Part shown: piece by piece, positions 56,885-63,975 of the stretch | Layout: every line of letters begins with the position of its first letter | Position numbering within the stretch: the first letter of the stretch is position 1 | DNA from: Amycolatopsis sp. NBC_01488 | GTDB lineage: Bacteria > Actinomycetota > Actinomycetes > Mycobacteriales > Pseudonocardiaceae | Assembly: GCF_036227105.1 (NCBI RefSeq) | Contig: NZ_CP109434.1 | Span: 4,282,001-4,346,000 of the forward strand | Direction of reading: 5' to 3' | Length of the DNA stretch: 64,000 nucleotides | Made by a program: the position numbers and the translations under genes | Notes under the pieces: model-generated | The model's input: only the letters and a program-made list of their open reading frames with translations | Database searches by the model: none | Told to the model about the DNA's origin: nothing

Positions 56885-57814
56885 TCAGAGGTCGAGGACC
56901 AGCCGGGCCGAGCACGAGCGGGAAACGCAGATCATCAGGACGTCCCCGGCCCGTCGTTCCGCCGCGGTGAGCACCGAGTCGCGGTGGTCCGGGGTGCCGC
57001 CGAGCACGCCGGTTTCGCAGGTGCCGCACGTGCCTTCCCGGCACGACGACAGCACGGGGACCCCCGATTCTTCGACCACCTCCAGGATCGACCGGTCCGC
57101 CGGGACCCGCAGGACGCGCCCCGACCCGGCCAGCTCGACCTCGAACGCGGTCCGCGCGCCCTCGTCCGGCAGCGGGGTGAACCGCTCGACGCGCAGGGCG
57201 TCCGCGGGCCAGCCGGCGCAGTGCCGCTCCACCGCGGCCAGCAGCGGTTCCGGGCCGCAGCAGTACACCGCGGTGTCCGGCCGCGGCTCGGCCAGCAGCG
57301 CGGCCAGGTCGAGCAGCCCGTGTTCGTCCTGCGGCCGGAGCGTCACCCGGTCCTCGTACCGGCGCAGATCGGCGGTGAAGGCCATCGACGAGCGCGTCCG
57401 GCCGCCGTAGACGAGCTGCCATTCGCGGCCCGTCCCGGCGACCCGGTCGAGCATCGGCAGGATCGGCGTGATGCCGATGCCGCCCGCGACGAACAGGTAG
57501 CGCTTGGCGTCGACGAGCGGGAAGTGGTTGCGTGGCCCGTCCAGGGAAACCCGTTGCCCGGCAACGAGTTCGTCGTGGACGTACGCCGAACCGCCGCGCC
57601 CGCCGGGTTCGCGCAGGACCGCCACCTGGTAGGCCGACGTGTCCTCCGGGCGTCCGTACAGCGAGTACTGCCGGACGCCGCCGGGGAGGACGAGGTCGAC
57701 GTGCGCACCCGGTTCCCAGGGCGGGAGGGGCCGCCCGTCCGGTGCCCGGAGCGTCAGCCGGACGACGCCGTCGGCGATCTCTTCCTTGTCCGCCACCACC
57801 AGGTCGAGCGTCAT
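56885..57814 (-). CDS. Oxygenase reductase component (FMN/FAD, NAD, C-terminal 2Fe-2S)
   Basis: A 309-aa PDR/VanB-type reductase: flavin motif RQYSLYG, NAD motif VAGGIGITPILPML and a C-terminal plant-type ferredoxin domain with CREGTCGTCETGVL and the fourth Cys in ICVSRSCS. It transfers electrons from NADH to the Rieske oxygenase of the same operon. The ATG overlaps the stop of the 54-aa gene. The domain order (flavin, NAD, ferredoxin) is that of VanB and phthalate dioxygenase reductase. Confidence 0.93.
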   Translation of the reverse strand: MTLDLVVADKEEIADGVVRLTLRAPDGRPLPPWEPGAHVDLVLPGGVRQYSLYGRPEDTSAYQVAVLREPGGRGGSAYVHDELVAGQRVSLDGPRNHFPLVDAKRYLFVAGGIGITPILPMLDRVAGTGREWQLVYGGRTRSSMAFTADLRRYEDRVTLRPQDEHGLLDLAALLAEPRPDTAVYCCGPEPLLAAVERHCAGWPADALRVERFTPLPDEGARTAFEVELAGSGRVLRVPADRSILEVVEESGVPVLSSCREGTCGTCETGVLGGTPDHRDSVLTAAERRAGDVLMICVSRSCSARLVLDL

Positions 57815-57975
57815 GCGTCGTGCCCTTCCGGATGGGCCAGGAGCCATTCCCACAGCTGCACCGGGTCGTCGAACTCCCGCTCGGCCGAGCAGTGGCAGAC
57901 CGCGCGCAGCCGGTCGGTGCCGAGCACCCAGTGGATCCGGTACACGCGGTCGCCGGTGAGCATCGGGCGCGTCAC
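57811..57975 (-). CDS. 54-aa protein between Rieske oxygenase and reductase
   Basis: A small protein starting at GTG 57975 (VTRPMLTGDRVYRIHWVLG) with a CHC motif and an LWEWLLAHPEG tail. Its start overlaps the oxygenase stop (GTGA) and its stop overlaps the reductase start (ATGA), which strongly supports translation. No family recognised; it resembles small proteins that accompany vanillate-type demethylases. The CHC could bind a metal. It may be a stability or activity factor of the oxygenase. Confidence 0.8.
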   Translation of the reverse strand: MTRPMLTGDRVYRIHWVLGTDRLRAVCHCSAEREFDDPVQLWEWLLAHPEGHDA

Positions 57976-59003
57976 GACGTCACCAGCCGCTGCAGCAGCC
58001 GGCGCGCCGCGAGACCGCCGGTGTCGATGTTGATCGACAGCTCCTGGTAGCCGTCCGGTTCGGCGGCGATCACCCGCTCGAGGACGTCGAGCGCTTCGAC
58101 GTCCTGCAGGACGACCGTGCGGTTGTTCTCCGCGAGGAACGCCGACACGCCTTCGTCGTCGAGGGCGAAATCCCGGGCCACCGCCCAGAAGTCGTGCGTC
58201 GAGTGCTCGGTCTCGGGCGTGATCGCGTAGACGACCTCGACGTGGAAGGCGTCCGGGTCGCTGCCGTCCGGGTGCGGCACCGAGCCGACCGGCGCGATGC
58301 GGCTGTGCAGCTTGTAGAGGCACGGCGGCGTGTACTCGATGTCCTGCCACCGCGCGATCCGGCCCTGCAGCCCGGTCGACTTCGCGTAGAACGGCGGGCA
58401 CGCCGCGTCGGCCATGTGCCGCGAGACGTAGACGATCCCGGCCTCGTCGTCGACCTCGGTCGTGATCGGCGTTTCGGCGACCTCCGGCGTGCCGATGTAG
58501 CCGCCGTGCAGGTACGTCTCGTGCGAGAGGTCGAGCAGGTTGTCGACCAGCAGCGAGTACCGCGCCTTCAGCGGCTCCATGCCGGCGACGGTCGTGTAGC
58601 CCGGGGAGTCGAGGTACGGCGCTCGCGGGATCTTCGCGGTGTCCGCCTTCTCGGGGTCGCCGATGAACACCCAGACGAAGGAGTCCTGTTCCACCAGCGG
58701 ATACCGCCGCAGCCGCGCGGTCCGCGGCACCCGGGTCTGGCCGGGCACCGCCACGCACTTGCCGTCGGCGCCGTAGGTGAAGCCGTGGTAGCCGCAGACG
58801 ACCTGGTCGTCGACGAGCCGGGACGGCGCCTGCGACAACGGGAACCGGCGGTGCACGCAGCGGTCGGCGACCGCCGTGACGCCGCCGTCGCGGGTCCGCC
58901 AGAACAGGATCGGCTCACCGCAAATGGTGCGGCTGAACAGGTCCTGGCCGATTTCGGAGCCGTACGCGGCGACGTACCACTGGTCGCGGGGGATGGCGCT
59001 CAT
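57972..59003 (-). CDS. Rieske oxygenase (VanA-like) large subunit
   Basis: A 343-aa aromatic ring-hydroxylating/demethylating oxygenase. The Rieske 2Fe-2S ligands are CVH (about residue 49) and CGYH (about residue 70); the mononuclear iron motif is DNLLDLSHETYLH. No beta subunit gene is nearby, so it is of the single-subunit vanillate O-demethylase type. The ATG is at 59003. An IclR-type box lies about 66 bases upstream. The substrate is likely a methoxy- or carboxy-aromatic acid. Confidence 0.93.
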   Translation of the reverse strand: MSAIPRDQWYVAAYGSEIGQDLFSRTICGEPILFWRTRDGGVTAVADRCVHRRFPLSQAPSRLVDDQVVCGYHGFTYGADGKCVAVPGQTRVPRTARLRRYPLVEQDSFVWVFIGDPEKADTAKIPRAPYLDSPGYTTVAGMEPLKARYSLLVDNLLDLSHETYLHGGYIGTPEVAETPITTEVDDEAGIVYVSRHMADAACPPFYAKSTGLQGRIARWQDIEYTPPCLYKLHSRIAPVGSVPHPDGSDPDAFHVEVVYAITPETEHSTHDFWAVARDFALDDEGVSAFLAENNRTVVLQDVEALDVLERVIAAEPDGYQELSINIDTGGLAARRLLQRLVTS

Positions 59004-59277: not shown

Positions 59278-60036
59278 TCAGCCGAGGGCGCGCGAGATCG
59301 CGCGGGCGCTGGTCATCACCAGCGGAGCCAGCGCGTGCGGCGCCGCGCTGCCGTGCCGCACGACGAGCGACACGGCGGCGACGACCTGCCCGCGCGCGTC
59401 GTGGATCGGCGCGCCGACCGAAAGGCTGTCGAGGGTCACCTGGCGCTCGCTGATGGAGAACCCGTGCGTGCGCACGTCGGCCAGCAGGTGCCGCAGCCGG
59501 TCCGGGTCGGTGACGGTCTCGGGGGTGTAGCGCTCGATCGGGCTGCGCAGGACGTCTTCCTGCACGTCGGCGGGCGCGTGGGCGAGCAGGACGAGCCCGA
59601 CCCCGGTCGCGGTGAGCGCGAACCGCCCGCCGACGCGCGTGCGCACCGGCACGGCCCCGGTCCCGGCGATCCGCTCGATGTAGACGACTTCGGTGCCTTC
59701 GCGCACGGCCAGTTGGACGTTCTCGCGGGTGATCTGCGAGAGGTCTTCGAGGAACGGCAGCGCGCGCTCGCGCAGCCCGAGGCCCCGCGGCGCGAGCGAC
59801 CCGAGCTCCCACAGCCGCAGCCCGACGCGGTAGACCCCGGACTCGTCCCGCTCGAGCGCACCCCACTCGCAGAACTCCCGCAGGACGCGGTGCGCGGTGG
59901 CCGCGGGCATCCCCGCCCGGCGCGCGATCTCGCTCAGCCGCAGGGCGGGCCGGTCGGGCGTGAACGCTCCGAGGACCCGCAGCGCCCGCCCGAGCACGGG
60001 CCCGGTGGCCCCCGGAGCACGACCTCGACCCGGCAT
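59278..60036 (-). CDS. IclR-family transcriptional regulator
   Basis: A 252-aa regulator: winged HTH (LSEIARRAGMPAATAHRVLREF, about residues 35-56) and an effector-binding GAF-like domain (RYTPETVTDP, SVGAPIHDARGQVVAAVSLV). IclR proteins of this type usually activate or repress genes for aromatic-acid degradation. The ATG 60036 is used; a GTG six bases further is possible. It lies upstream of the Rieske operon on the same strand, with the TTCCAT-N3-ATGGAA box between them. Confidence 0.9.
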   Translation of the reverse strand: MPGRGRAPGATGPVLGRALRVLGAFTPDRPALRLSEIARRAGMPAATAHRVLREFCEWGALERDESGVYRVGLRLWELGSLAPRGLGLRERALPFLEDLSQITRENVQLAVREGTEVVYIERIAGTGAVPVRTRVGGRFALTATGVGLVLLAHAPADVQEDVLRSPIERYTPETVTDPDRLRHLLADVRTHGFSISERQVTLDSLSVGAPIHDARGQVVAAVSLVVRHGSAAPHALAPLVMTSARAISRALG

Positions 60037-60053
60037 GACCACCGAGCATAGCT

Positions 60054-61238
60054 TCAGCTGAACAGTGCCTCGTCTGTCCAGTCCAACCCCTTGACGACGT
60101 CTCCGGCGGCCAGTGCCGAGTGGAACGCTCCGGCCGCGGTCACCTCGCCGGGCCGGATGCGGGCGGCGATGGCCCCGCTGACCGTCGCGGTGGCGAACGA
60201 CGTGCCGCGCCAGGTCGCGTAGCCCTCGAAGTCCTGGACGTCACCGCTGCGCAGCGTCACCTTGCCGGACAGGTAGGTGCTGACGACTTCGTCGCCGAGG
60301 GCGGTGCAGGTGACCCACGGCAGGTCGGGGCTGTACGGCGCCAGGGTGCCGTCCGCCTTGGTGGCCCCGGCCGCGATGACGCCGGTCAGTGCGGCCGGCC
60401 AGGTGGGCGAGGTCCGCGTGAGGCCGTTGCGGATCCCCGGGATCCCGCCGTGGTTGCCGGCCGCGGCGACGATCGTCAGGTGCGGGCTGAGCCGCTCGAC
60501 GGCGCGCCGGACGATCAGCGGGCAGTCGCCGTCCTGGGCCCGGGTCCCGATCGCCAGGTTGAGGACGTCGACGCCGTCGTCGAGGAACCCGGCCAGCTCC
60601 ACGACCGTGTCCCACGCGCTCGCCCGGCCGTTCGCGTCCAGGACGTCGCGCACGACCAGGGTCGCCGCCGGCGCCTGGGCCAGGATCATCCCCGCCACGA
60701 ACGTCGCGTGCCCGTTCTCCCACGGGGTGGCCGTGCCGGGGTCGGGCAGGTCGAAGGTGCTGTCGCCGGCCGGGGTCTCGTAGTGCCCGTCGAGGTCGGG
60801 GTGGCGGTACAGCTTGGTGTCGAGGAGCCCGATCCGGACTCCGCGCCCGGCGGCCGGATCGGCGCCGGTGGTGTCCGGCCGGGCCGCTCGCACGGGATCG
60901 AAGTCGCCTTGGGACTGGGTCTGCGGGTAGGCGCCGAACTGGTTGCTCAGCGTCCGGTTCTTGCCGAGCAGCGGGACCCAGCCGCCGCAGCGCGCGGCGA
61001 ACCGGCGGCGCAGCTCGGACAGCACGGCGTCGATTTCCATGACGAACGGCAGATCGGGGGCCATGCTGAAGCCGTAGGTGAGCTTCAGCTTGGCCAGGTC
61101 GAACGGCGGGATCTCGCCGTCCCGGGTGACGATGACGCCGAGGTCCACGAGCGCCGCTTCGACGAGCGGGCGTTCGCGCAGGTCGACGATCAGCTCGTCG
61201 GGCGGGGCGTCCTCGGGTACGTCGGGCAGGTAGTACAC
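60054..61238 (-). CDS. Intracellular subtilisin-like S8 serine protease
   Basis: A 394-aa protease with complete catalytic triad: D140 (GLLDTKLYRHPD), H177 (NGHATFVAG), S347 (GTSFATATVSG), and oxyanion Asn262 (AAAGNHGG). The first 135 residues are a domain unlike usual prodomains (MYYLPDVPEDAPPDEL.. then VIVTRDGEIPP), and there is no signal peptide. The start is GTG 61238 with GGAGGG six bases upstream. It faces a TPR-CHAT protease gene across an 88-base gap. The pair suggests regulated proteolysis or defence. Confidence 0.88.
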   Translation of the reverse strand: MYYLPDVPEDAPPDELIVDLRERPLVEAALVDLGVIVTRDGEIPPFDLAKLKLTYGFSMAPDLPFVMEIDAVLSELRRRFAARCGGWVPLLGKNRTLSNQFGAYPQTQSQGDFDPVRAARPDTTGADPAAGRGVRIGLLDTKLYRHPDLDGHYETPAGDSTFDLPDPGTATPWENGHATFVAGMILAQAPAATLVVRDVLDANGRASAWDTVVELAGFLDDGVDVLNLAIGTRAQDGDCPLIVRRAVERLSPHLTIVAAAGNHGGIPGIRNGLTRTSPTWPAALTGVIAAGATKADGTLAPYSPDLPWVTCTALGDEVVSTYLSGKVTLRSGDVQDFEGYATWRGTSFATATVSGAIAARIRPGEVTAAGAFHSALAAGDVVKGLDWTDEALFS

Positions 61239-61326
61239 GCAATTCCCTCCTCGATGTGGTGACACCTGTTCAGACGCGCGCGGCCACCGCCCTGATACGT
61301 GCTGGCGGACGACCGCGCCGCCGGGA

Positions 61327-63975
61327 ATGCTGAAACCCATGGTGGCGGACTCAGCCCTCGCCGAGGCGCGAGCGGCCATGCGGCTGGCCGATCTGCAGCC
61401 CGGAAGGGCAGTACCGGCCGCCGCCGCGGCCGTCCGGCGGGCCCTGCGCGAGCGCGACACGGCGGCGGCCGCGCTCGCCGAACAGGCGTGGGGCCACGCG
61501 CTGCTGCAGTGCAGCGAGGTCGGCGAGGCCGTCGCGCACCTGCGTCGCGCGGTGCGCCACGGCGAGCGGGCCGGCCGGCGGGCACTCGCCGGGGAAAGCC
61601 GGATGAAGCTCGCGTTCGCGTTGGTCCAGCGGGGCAGCTCGCGGGCCGCGCTGCGCGAGATCGACGTCGCGGTGCGGGAGCTCGACGGGATCGCGAGCGG
61701 CAAGGCCCTCGCCCAGCGCGCGGTGATCCGCTACCACGTGGGCCGGCTCGACGAAGCGGCCGTGGACTACCAGGCCGCGGTCCGGGAGCTGCGGCGCGGC
61801 GACGACCGGCTCGGGCTGCAGCGCGCCCTGATGAACCGGGGGATCCTGCACGCCGAGCGCTACGACTTCGACGCCGCGGTCCGCGACCTGGCCGAGGCCG
61901 ACGTCCTCGCGCGAGAGCTCGGCCGCGACCTCGTCGTCGGGATCATCGCGGAGAACCTCGGGTTCGTGGAGAGCCAGCGCGGCGACGTCCCGGCCGCGCT
62001 CGCCTGCCTGGCCAGGGCCGAGGAGATCATCGGCGCGCACGGCGGCCAGCTCGCGCCGGTGCTGCAGGACCGGGCGGAGCTGCTGCTGTCGGCCGGCCTC
62101 GTCACCGAGGCCCGCCGGACCGCCGAGCGCGCGGTGCGCGTGTTCGCCGCGGAGAACCGGCGGCTCAAGGTTCCCGAGATGCGGCTCCTGCTCGCCCAGA
62201 TCGCGGTGCTGGCCGAAGAGTGGACGACGGCCGCGGAGCAGGCCCGCGCGGCGTTGCGCGCCTTCACCCGGCAGGGGCGTGCGCAGTGGGCCGCGCTGGC
62301 CCGCTCGGCGGAGCTGCGCGCGCGGCTCGGCGCGGGAGAGCGCAGCCGCGTCGGCGGCGGCGTGGTCGACGCGATGGTGTCCACAGTGGACGCCAACGGC
62401 CGTCCGCTGGCGGCGGTGCAGGCCCGGCTGGACGCGGCCCGGCTCGCCGAGGTCCGGGGCCGGACGGCAGTGGCCGCGGAGCACCTGGCCGTCGCGGCGA
62501 AAGCCGCGCGCGGATCCGGACCGGCCACCCTGCGGGCACGCGGCTGGTACGCGGAGGCGTTGCGACGCCGCCGCGAGAACCCGCGCGGGGCGCTCACCGC
62601 CGCGCGGACCGGGCTGCGGATCCTCGACGACCACCACGCCGCGCTCGGAGCGAGCGACCTGCGGGCGTACTCGGCGTCGCACCGCGCGGACCTCGTCCGG
62701 CTCGGCCTCCGCATCGCGCTGGACGAGGGCCGGGTGCCCGGGATCTTCGAGTGGGCGGAGCGCGGCCGGGCGAGCCGGTCGCTGCACCGCTCGGCGCTGC
62801 CGCCGGACGACCCCGAGCTGGCCGCCCTGATGCCCCGGCTGCGCGCCACCGCGGGCGCGCTCGAACAGGCCCGTGCCGCGGGCGAGCCGACCGCCCGGCT
62901 GCTGCACCGGCAGGTCGAGCTGGAACGGCGGATCCGCGACCGCACCAGGCTGCTGCCCGCGGCGGCGGGAGCGGACGTGCCGCGGCCGGTGTCCGTCGGC
63001 GCGCTCGCCGAAGCCCTCGGCGAGCGCGCGCTGGTGGAGTTCGTCGAAGCCGACGGGACGGTCCTGGCCCTGTGCCTGGTGGCGGGCAGGCTGCGGCTGC
63101 ACGCCCTCGGGTCCGCGGCCGAAGTGGCCGGCCTGCTCGACCGGATCCCGTTCGCCCTGCGCAAGCTCGCCGTCCCCGGCCCCGGCCGGTCGCGGATGCC
63201 GGTCGAGCAGCTGCTGCACGGCGCGGCCGTGCGCCTCGACGCCGTCGTGCTGGCGCCGCTGGGCGAGCTCGGCGACCGCCCGCTCGTCGTGGTCCCGAGC
63301 GGGATCCTGCACAACGTGCCGTGGGCGGTGCTGCCGTCCTGCGCGGGCCGGCCGGTGGCCGTCGCGCCGTCGGCGACGCTCTGGCACGCGGCGGCGACCC
63401 GGCCGCCGGGGCCGGCGCGCGAGGTGGCCGTGGCCGGCGGGCCGGGACTGCCGGGCGCGCGCGAGGAGGCCTTGGCCGTGGCGGAAATCCACGGGCGGAC
63501 CGCTCTGGTGGACGAGGCCGCGACCGTCGAGGCGGTACTGGCGGCGCTGACGACGGCGGGCACGGTGCACCTCGCGGCCCACGGCCGGCTGGCGGCGGAC
63601 AACCCGCTGTTTTCGGCGCTGCGCCTGCACGACGGCCCGCTTCTCGTGCACGACGTCCGGCGCCTGCCCCGCGTGCCGGAAACGGTGCTGCTGGCCGCGT
63701 GCGACGTCGGCCGGTCGGTGGTGTGCCCGGGCAACGAGCTGCTCGGGCTGAGCGCCACCTTCATCGAGCGGGGCACCGCCCAGCTCGTCGCGTCAGTCGT
63801 GCCGGTGCCGGACCTCGCCACGACGTCGCTGATGACGGAGGTCCACCGCCGGCTCGCGGCGGGCGAGGCACCGGCCGCCGCGCTGGCTTCCGCGCAGCAG
63901 AAGGTGGCGGCGGACGGCCCGGCCGAGCTCGCGGCGTCGGCCGGGTTCGTCTGCGTCGGCGCCGGGTCCCGCTAG
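61327..63975 (+). CDS. TPR-CHAT (caspase-HetF-like) cysteine protease
   Basis: An 882-aa protein: long N-terminal TPR-like helical repeats (about residues 10-450) then a C-terminal CHAT domain. The catalytic dyad is His752 in LAAHGRL and Cys792 in LAACDVG, both intact. The start ATG 61327 has little ribosome site; ATG 61339 is an alternative. TPR-CHAT proteases are activated by binding a partner and cleave specific proteins, for example in type III-E CRISPR and other defence systems. Here the partner candidate is the divergent S8 protease. Confidence 0.9.
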   Translation: MLKPMVADSALAEARAAMRLADLQPGRAVPAAAAAVRRALRERDTAAAALAEQAWGHALLQCSEVGEAVAHLRRAVRHGERAGRRALAGESRMKLAFALVQRGSSRAALREIDVAVRELDGIASGKALAQRAVIRYHVGRLDEAAVDYQAAVRELRRGDDRLGLQRALMNRGILHAERYDFDAAVRDLAEADVLARELGRDLVVGIIAENLGFVESQRGDVPAALACLARAEEIIGAHGGQLAPVLQDRAELLLSAGLVTEARRTAERAVRVFAAENRRLKVPEMRLLLAQIAVLAEEWTTAAEQARAALRAFTRQGRAQWAALARSAELRARLGAGERSRVGGGVVDAMVSTVDANGRPLAAVQARLDAARLAEVRGRTAVAAEHLAVAAKAARGSGPATLRARGWYAEALRRRRENPRGALTAARTGLRILDDHHAALGASDLRAYSASHRADLVRLGLRIALDEGRVPGIFEWAERGRASRSLHRSALPPDDPELAALMPRLRATAGALEQARAAGEPTARLLHRQVELERRIRDRTRLLPAAAGADVPRPVSVGALAEALGERALVEFVEADGTVLALCLVAGRLRLHALGSAAEVAGLLDRIPFALRKLAVPGPGRSRMPVEQLLHGAAVRLDAVVLAPLGELGDRPLVVVPSGILHNVPWAVLPSCAGRPVAVAPSATLWHAAATRPPGPAREVAVAGGPGLPGAREEALAVAEIHGRTALVDEAATVEAVLAALTTAGTVHLAAHGRLAADNPLFSALRLHDGPLLVHDVRRLPRVPETVLLAACDVGRSVVCPGNELLGLSATFIERGTAQLVASVVPVPDLATTSLMTEVHRRLAAGEAPAAALASAQQKVAADGPAELAASAGFVCVGAGSR

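Follow-up and report, generated by a model that had tools for sequence, protein, structure and literature searches.

What do a subtilisin-like and a caspase-like protease do together when their genes face each other head to head in an actinomycete chromosome? The pair in question lies near the right edge of a 64,000-nucleotide stretch of Amycolatopsis sp. NBC_01488 (hereafter the window), which corresponds to chromosome positions 4282001-4346000 of a 9.5-Mb genome (label G000:C1). A sequence-only reading of this DNA had taken the S8 (subtilisin-like) protease and the TPR-CHAT protease for a candidate two-protease switch or abortive-infection module. Comparison with related genomes suggests that the window pair is probably the protease half of a split ECF54-type sigma switch, which would act in trans on a unit made of an extracytoplasmic function (ECF) sigma factor and a protein of ~150 amino acids, here called SM. 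We favor this reading because relatives carry linked four-gene units, no such unit is found at the loci of the window clade, a sigma-SM unit termed ECF-B-SM is kept where syntenic relatives also carry S8 and CHAT genes, and a separate protease pair is mostly kept in the same genomes. Throughout, G-numbers denote genomes, L-numbers fetched loci, g1 the genus of the window and g8 Lentzea.

The S8 and TPR-CHAT proteases as a two-gene unit

The S8 gene (60054-61238, minus strand) has a GTG start and encodes 394 residues including Asp140, His177 and Ser347; no sigma gene adjoins it. Its product matches Pfam Peptidase_S8 (4.9e-25), and profile and catalytic residues together identify it as an S8 peptidase. 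The TPR-CHAT gene (61327-63975, plus strand) encodes 882 residues and matches Pfam CHAT (3.3e-36), with His752 and Cys792 placed in LAAHG and AACDVG, respectively. Both active sites had been described as intact, which the located residues and the Pfam matches bear out. TPR profiles match the CHAT protein at E-values of 1.6e-5 and 3.8e-5, under their curated cut-offs. With a His/Cys-containing CHAT domain and a modeled N-terminal TPR array, the protein is classed as a predicted TPR-CHAT protease. The divergent intergenic region (61239-61326) holds exactly the 88 bases first reported between the two starts. Relatives of the CHAT protein align from an ATG at 61339, with which the protein would have 878 residues; the starts may then lie 100 bases apart, and CHAT residue numbers would drop by 4. 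Judged by eye only, S8 has no signal peptide. A 549-residue open reading frame with a TTG start that covers S8 was set aside as a mechanical extension only, and a search of the window genome with the S8 protein at E ≤ 0.001 returned no second match.

That the two genes belong together is borne out by their co-occurrence past close relatives. At E ≤ 1e-10, an S8 search found matches in 52 of 150 family genomes and 27 of 396 phylum genomes, many of them to other S8 proteases, and at E ≤ 1e-35 it found 29 places in 27 of 390 family genomes. The loci around these 29 places were tagged with S8, CHAT, ECF and SM profiles built from the first loci. A CHAT gene adjoins S8 at 26 of the 29 places, head to head in 24 and tail to tail in two (G734, G748); no CHAT was scored at a contig end in G694, at G692:C8, where a weak match is seen, or at G140:C43, where there is none. 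More distant pairs, with S8 ~35% identical, have the same layout (L052-L061, L063, L078-L081), and the pair also occurs outside the family, in Sphaerisporangium (L043) and in other families (L078-L081). After exclusion of the duplicate locus L046, His, Asn and Ser are present in all 34 aligned S8 proteins and Asp in 33 (one fragment is gapped), and His and Cys are present in all 35 aligned CHAT proteins. Because the pair and its catalytic residues recur in divergent relatives, it is not a chance arrangement, and by these sequence comparisons S8 and TPR-CHAT are a real, conserved two-gene unit. The broad single-protein genome scans scored only 4-21 candidates per genome and can therefore miss weak relatives; the pairs of G141, G615, G744, G656 (L162) and G665 (L163) were absent from the S8 scan and were recovered by CHAT scans. 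Neither the S8-CHAT pair nor a split module is the subject of any paper found among titles and abstracts of one open-licence library, and passages of a review (PMC8103513) mention neither.

Linked modules and their possible separated halves

ECF and SM genes adjoin S8 at 13 of the 26 pairs, after S8 in 11 and before it in two (G734, G748). One further pair (G630) has an ECF gene beyond CHAT without SM, and both genes are absent at the other 12. The scanned sigmas match Sigma70_r2. SM belongs to no firm family; some members give weak CarboxypepD_reg matches (E 0.003-0.05, below cut-off). A neighborhood of subtilase, CHAT and ECF genes is already known in kind, since the available text of PMC8999054 describes carboxypeptidase-domain, subtilase and CHAT proteins in the context of ECF54 and proposes proteolytic control; as worded, it leans towards a sigma that is degraded with no anti-sigma involved. 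The name ECF54 is used here on the strength of that gene context and not of an ECF54 profile assignment. The window resembles the ECF54 neighborhoods in having subtilase and CHAT genes together but differs from them in that no ECF sigma adjoins: neither an ECF nor an SM match is found in the ~6-9 kb fetched per side of the window pair (L010), and the closest relatives of the pair likewise have neither within that distance. Sigma and SM are thus unlinked here, and the pair seems to act in trans on a sigma from a paralogous module. Pairs without adjoining sigma and SM, and sigma-SM units without proteases, are called orphan below. A CHAT tree made by a quick method places the 12 window-type CHATs as one clade inside linked A-type modules, and in the ECF tree the orphan ECF-B sigmas group with linked B-type ones.

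Other arrangements were seen among the fetched loci. In G127 (L069:9968-11410), a short S8 and a CHAT, matched only in its C-terminal CHAT part, stand beside ECF-B and SM as a reduced module. The B-type CHAT beside ECF-B in G693 (L129) lies in four separate reading-frame pieces and is therefore probably decayed or misassembled. A small clade of ECF sigmas has no SM (L065, L074, L076, L048, L098, L085); in L048 and L098 its members adjoin an S8 whose CHAT match is absent or weak, and in L085 they adjoin a pair. The window genome also carries a full S8-ECF-SM-CHAT module on one strand (L066, G000:C1 3083000-3101000), the layout of which is the same in nine further fetched g1 genomes.

Where might the sigma of an orphan pair be? 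A sigma profile was run in 15 genomes and found several related sigmas in the window genome, three of them with an adjoining SM match. ECF-B lies there at chromosome positions 949981-950541 and its SM at 950538-950975, 3.39 Mb from the window pair. In 390 genomes, an ECF-B search gave 45 at E ≤ 1e-52 and 40 at E ≤ 1e-56, with neighborhoods of two kinds: with B-type S8 and CHAT (ECF → SM → ← S8 → CHAT) or without them. Orphan pairs at S8 E ≤ 1e-35 occur in 13 genomes, namely the 12 that have neither ECF nor SM at the pair and G694, whose S8 is at a contig end with no ECF on its other side (together G000, G110, G589, G702, G051, G007, G140, G687, G691, G692, G694, G704, G620). A protease-free ECF-B-SM is present in all 13, versus none of 13 linked-module genomes (E ≤ 1e-52). 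The ECF-B module is intact in G636, G656 and G665, which have a linked A module; G109, which has a linked A module too, holds a sigma whose ECF-B match (E 7.2e-52) lies just outside the threshold, with no adjoining SM match. The distance between pair and ECF-B is 3.4 Mb in G000, 1.7 Mb in G110 and 4.1 Mb in G620, each a single-contig genome, and 184 kb in G702 and 262 kb in G691, where one contig holds both; in the other eight genomes they are on different contigs.

Window-type S8 (E ≤ 1e-80, 12 genomes) coincides with ECF-B (40 of 390 genomes) at a hypergeometric p of 2.6e-13, a value that ignores relatedness. A separate pair is present in 16 of the 20 genomes with orphan ECF-B-SM, namely the 13 above and G141, G615 and G744, the last with pair and orphan ECF-B some 22 kb apart on the same contig. 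We set aside G630, whose pair comes with an ECF without SM, and G591, which has a window-type CHAT and no S8; G739 was dropped because of a contig end. Hence, a separate pair accompanies 16 of 18 orphan ECF-B-SM units but 3 of the 20 rows with linked ECF-B (G656, G665 and G691, the last with both kinds), with Fisher's p of 1.0e-5, again ignoring relatedness.

If the pair were a stand-alone switch, possibly of abortive infection, whose link to a sigma has been lost, orphan ECF-B-SM in 13 of 13 orphan-pair genomes would not be predicted, as the two would be independent. We consider such a switch unlikely, although 12 of the 26 pairs have no adjoining sigma or SM, the window clade keeps both proteases and their active sites without them, and an orphan pair without orphan ECF-B is seen in G656 and G665.

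The strongest single piece of evidence for a split module is synteny at the ECF-B locus in g1. Among 19 g1 genomes with ECF-B, 17 were compared; G656 and G665, whose B modules are intact and whose ECF-B is more distant, were left out. Both flanking genes were found in 16 of the 17, the lower flank being off the stretch in G614. From SM to the next conserved gene, the gap measures 217 bp in the window genome, 37 in G620, 122 in G630, 143 in G141 and 430 in G615, versus 3845-5836 bp in 11 other g1 genomes, where it holds S8 and CHAT. G615 retains a CHAT remnant of 91 residues with 94.5% identity. All five g1 genomes without S8-CHAT at ECF-B have a separate pair, versus none of the 12 with S8-CHAT in place (Fisher 1.6e-4; with G656 and G665 added, 5 of 5 versus 2 of 14, Fisher 0.0018). 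In these 12 genomes, the S8 and CHAT scans found no orphan pair, and the further CHATs, at 36-37%, belong to linked S8-ECF-SM-CHAT modules in the eight that were checked; G614 has no CHAT above threshold in the CHAT scan. The five separate pairs represent four lineages (window type, L084, L085 and L075/L144), and that of G630 comes with an ECF. B-type linked modules also occur in other genera (L118, L119, L127, L129, L132), so that loss of S8-CHAT in the five genomes is simpler than gain in the rest.

Promoter-like motif, possible clients and mechanism

A promoter-like element of the window S8 (61273-61298, minus strand; GTATCA-N15-GCGTC) differs by one mismatch from ATCA-N15-GCATC of relatives, and a GGAGGG ribosome-binding site follows at 61245-61250 on the same strand. 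The relatives' motif was written from Lentzea rows with other genera in view, so that its counts are no blind test. Exact copies precede S8 in 8 of 12 window-type pairs (10 if one mismatch is allowed) and orphan ECF-B in 9 of 20 cases (13). The corresponding counts are 0 of 15 (1) for S8 genes of linked A-type modules and 8 of 1141 (53) for control genes. Exact matches at pair and orphan ECF-B come from Lentzea and from the genus labeled g21, and the linked ECF-B of Lentzea L127 carries the exact motif as well. Linked A-type S8 genes mostly keep a GTATCA or GCATCA half, and their second halves differ (GCTCC, ACTCC). In sister genera, S8 and ECF-B thus have a common motif that is promoter-like in sequence. 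Within g1, the window S8 and the separate pair of G615 both have GTATCA-N15-GCGTC.

Several observations weigh against the split reading. The shared motif is absent from ECF-B in g1, which has GTATTT-N15-GCTC or GATC instead; promoter sharing is not established for the window genome because its ECF-B has GTATTT-N15-GCTC and its S8 GCGTC. The B-type S8 genes of Lentzea L127, L129 and L132 lack the motif of ECF-B too. Strict dependence of the two halves on each other is contradicted in both directions: G656 and G665 hold orphan pairs (L162 on G656:C1; L163 on G665:C15) despite an intact ECF-B module, and in G688 and G696, which have orphan ECF-B-SM, no orphan pair was found. Orphan pairs under the scan threshold may have escaped notice. 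G591 (L142) has a window-type TPR-CHAT with no adjoining S8 match, though orphan ECF-B-SM is present. Furthermore, only four independent contrasts lie on supported branches, of which 2.9 agree on average (sign test, median p 0.25). This non-significant result would suit co-occurrence through shared ancestry or genome size only, with large genomes holding more paralogous modules and losing parts at random; genomes above 8 Mb make up most of those listed with these genes, and exceptions run in both directions. We regard this explanation as very unlikely in view of the contrast within g1 (5 of 5 versus 2 of 14), in which four pair lineages are matched to loss at one locus.

A further point against ECF-B as the sole partner comes from a second orphan ECF-SM locus of the window genome, termed D type (L067, G000:C1 ~2057455-2058422, ~2.057 Mb). 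At ten usable D-type loci, all six genomes with an A-type or separate pair (G000, G141, G110, G007, G051, G030) lack a linked CHAT, and all four that have no such pair (G054, G124, G085, G127) carry one (Fisher 0.0048). The D-type sigma-SM locus may thus be a client besides ECF-B, and the partner of the pair is not settled for this reason. That another sigma-SM locus, above all L067, is the true trans partner in place of ECF-B seems quite unlikely to us: the CHAT of those four genomes has no adjoining S8, D-type sigma genes lack the shared promoter motif, and the contrast was not chosen blind, with two of 12 genomes set aside (G140, for a contig end right after SM, and G109, whose sigma is 47% identical and not clearly D type). 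The ECF without SM of the window genome (L065) was also considered as a partner and is not favored, as neither G007 nor G051 has a match of that strength.

It is conceivable, if rather doubtful, that S8-CHAT serves as a trans-acting protease hub, with one free pair for several unlinked sigma-SM units (ECF-B, ECF-D and perhaps more). Such a hub would account for the repeated loss of dedicated proteases from sigma-SM units in genomes that have a free pair, and for the match between the promoters of S8 and the unlinked sigma in sister genera. The two halves, protease pair and sigma-SM pair, would then be interchangeable.

For the split switch itself, two known systems offer a possible mechanism. 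At the CASP locus (Craspase), according to the available text of PMC10028731, the CASP-sigma inhibitor Csx30 is cut by the TPR-CHAT protease Csx29 acting together with Cas7-11; shared with the proposed switch are the ECF sigma, its small inhibitor and the TPR-CHAT protease. In contrast to the window pair, this system acts with Cas7-11 and RNA, and that text does not mention an S8 protease. The window CHAT has no NCBIfam match at E ≤ 0.001 that would place it in the Csx29 family. In the second system, as far as the accessible part of PMC11417357 describes it, CalpL cuts the anti-sigma CalpT, which is bound to CalpS, giving a similar chain of protease, anti-sigma and ECF sigma, but CalpL is a Lon-type protease with a SAVED sensor and not a CHAT or S8 protein. 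By analogy with these two chains, the pair is proposed to act on SM and thereby on the sigma. TPR-CHAT, with TPR as the sensor and CHAT as the caspase-like protease, and S8 would govern the ECF sigma in trans. Their most likely target would be SM, seen as an anti-sigma-like or stability partner of the sigma; once SM is cut, the sigma would be free to activate its own gene and that of S8. This chain of cleavage from pair to SM to sigma is put forward tentatively.

Protease control of ECF54 sigmas has so far been proposed from gene neighborhoods only, judging from the available text of PMC8999054. A split module would provide a natural test, since its halves lie apart, each with paralogues, so that one can ask which pair acts on which sigma and SM. 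If the reading is true, caspase-like and subtilisin-like proteases would be tied to gene control in actinomycetes, parallel to Craspase and Calp and outside CRISPR.

Structure models and gene neighborhood

The N-terminal domain of S8 (60840-61217, minus strand) is weakly alignable in A-type and C-type relatives. It had been described as no standard prodomain, which holds insofar as no prodomain match is found by sequence; it could still be a diverged prodomain. As an I9 prodomain it was rejected, as no such match appears in 24 members, among which a single Fervidolysin-prodomain match reaches E 0.23, and solved structures gave no prodomain match. A poor model of S8 (pLDDT 39), too low in quality for structure search, has a beta-alpha-beta-beta-alpha order in residues 15-80. 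The solved sequences closest to the S8 catalytic domain are bacterial intracellular subtilisins (PDB 4zoq, 2xrm and others), from which S8 differs in that the matches begin at profile position 117 or later and leave its N-terminal domain uncovered. In the model of the CHAT protein, helical repeats span residues 10-540 and match TPR structures; this TPR part is modeled well and resembles LGN and, at rank 3, separase. The CHAT domain is poorly modeled (residues 693-833 below 50), and we make no structural claim for it for this reason.

The idea of a defence island was dropped. The scanned neighbors of the window pair comprise an oxygenase of Rieske/VanA type with its reductase, a cupin, an IclR regulator, a zinc-type dehydrogenase, a beta-lactamase-fold protein, a DUF4097 protein and a NACHT gene, and gene lists compared by eye revealed no third gene common to window-type pairs across genera. 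The NACHT-type NTPase, with an NNH7 N-terminal domain (Pfam 3.6e-62), lies ~800 bases past the right window end (G000:C1 4346803-4349898; L010:16803-19898) and would suit a stand-alone defence switch, but none of the other loci searched holds a relative, and the neighbors of the pair vary. No PADLOC model matches CHAT, which likewise speaks against such a switch, and S8 matches the generic subtilase PDLC03014 only (4e-11). With half of the pairs accompanied by ECF and SM, the evidence pointing to sigma-SM in trans and CHAT lacking a PADLOC match, an isolated switch or abortive-infection module is not upheld, and what was examined gives no support for a role in defence. A zinc carboxypeptidase beside S8 in five scanned Lentzea loci was taken as local to Lentzea. 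In the window, the IclR regulator reading frame (59278-60042, minus strand) begins 12 bases past the S8 stop on the same strand, and genes for a VanA-like oxygenase and its reductase (56885-59003) adjoin it; the regulator probably goes with these oxygenase and reductase genes.

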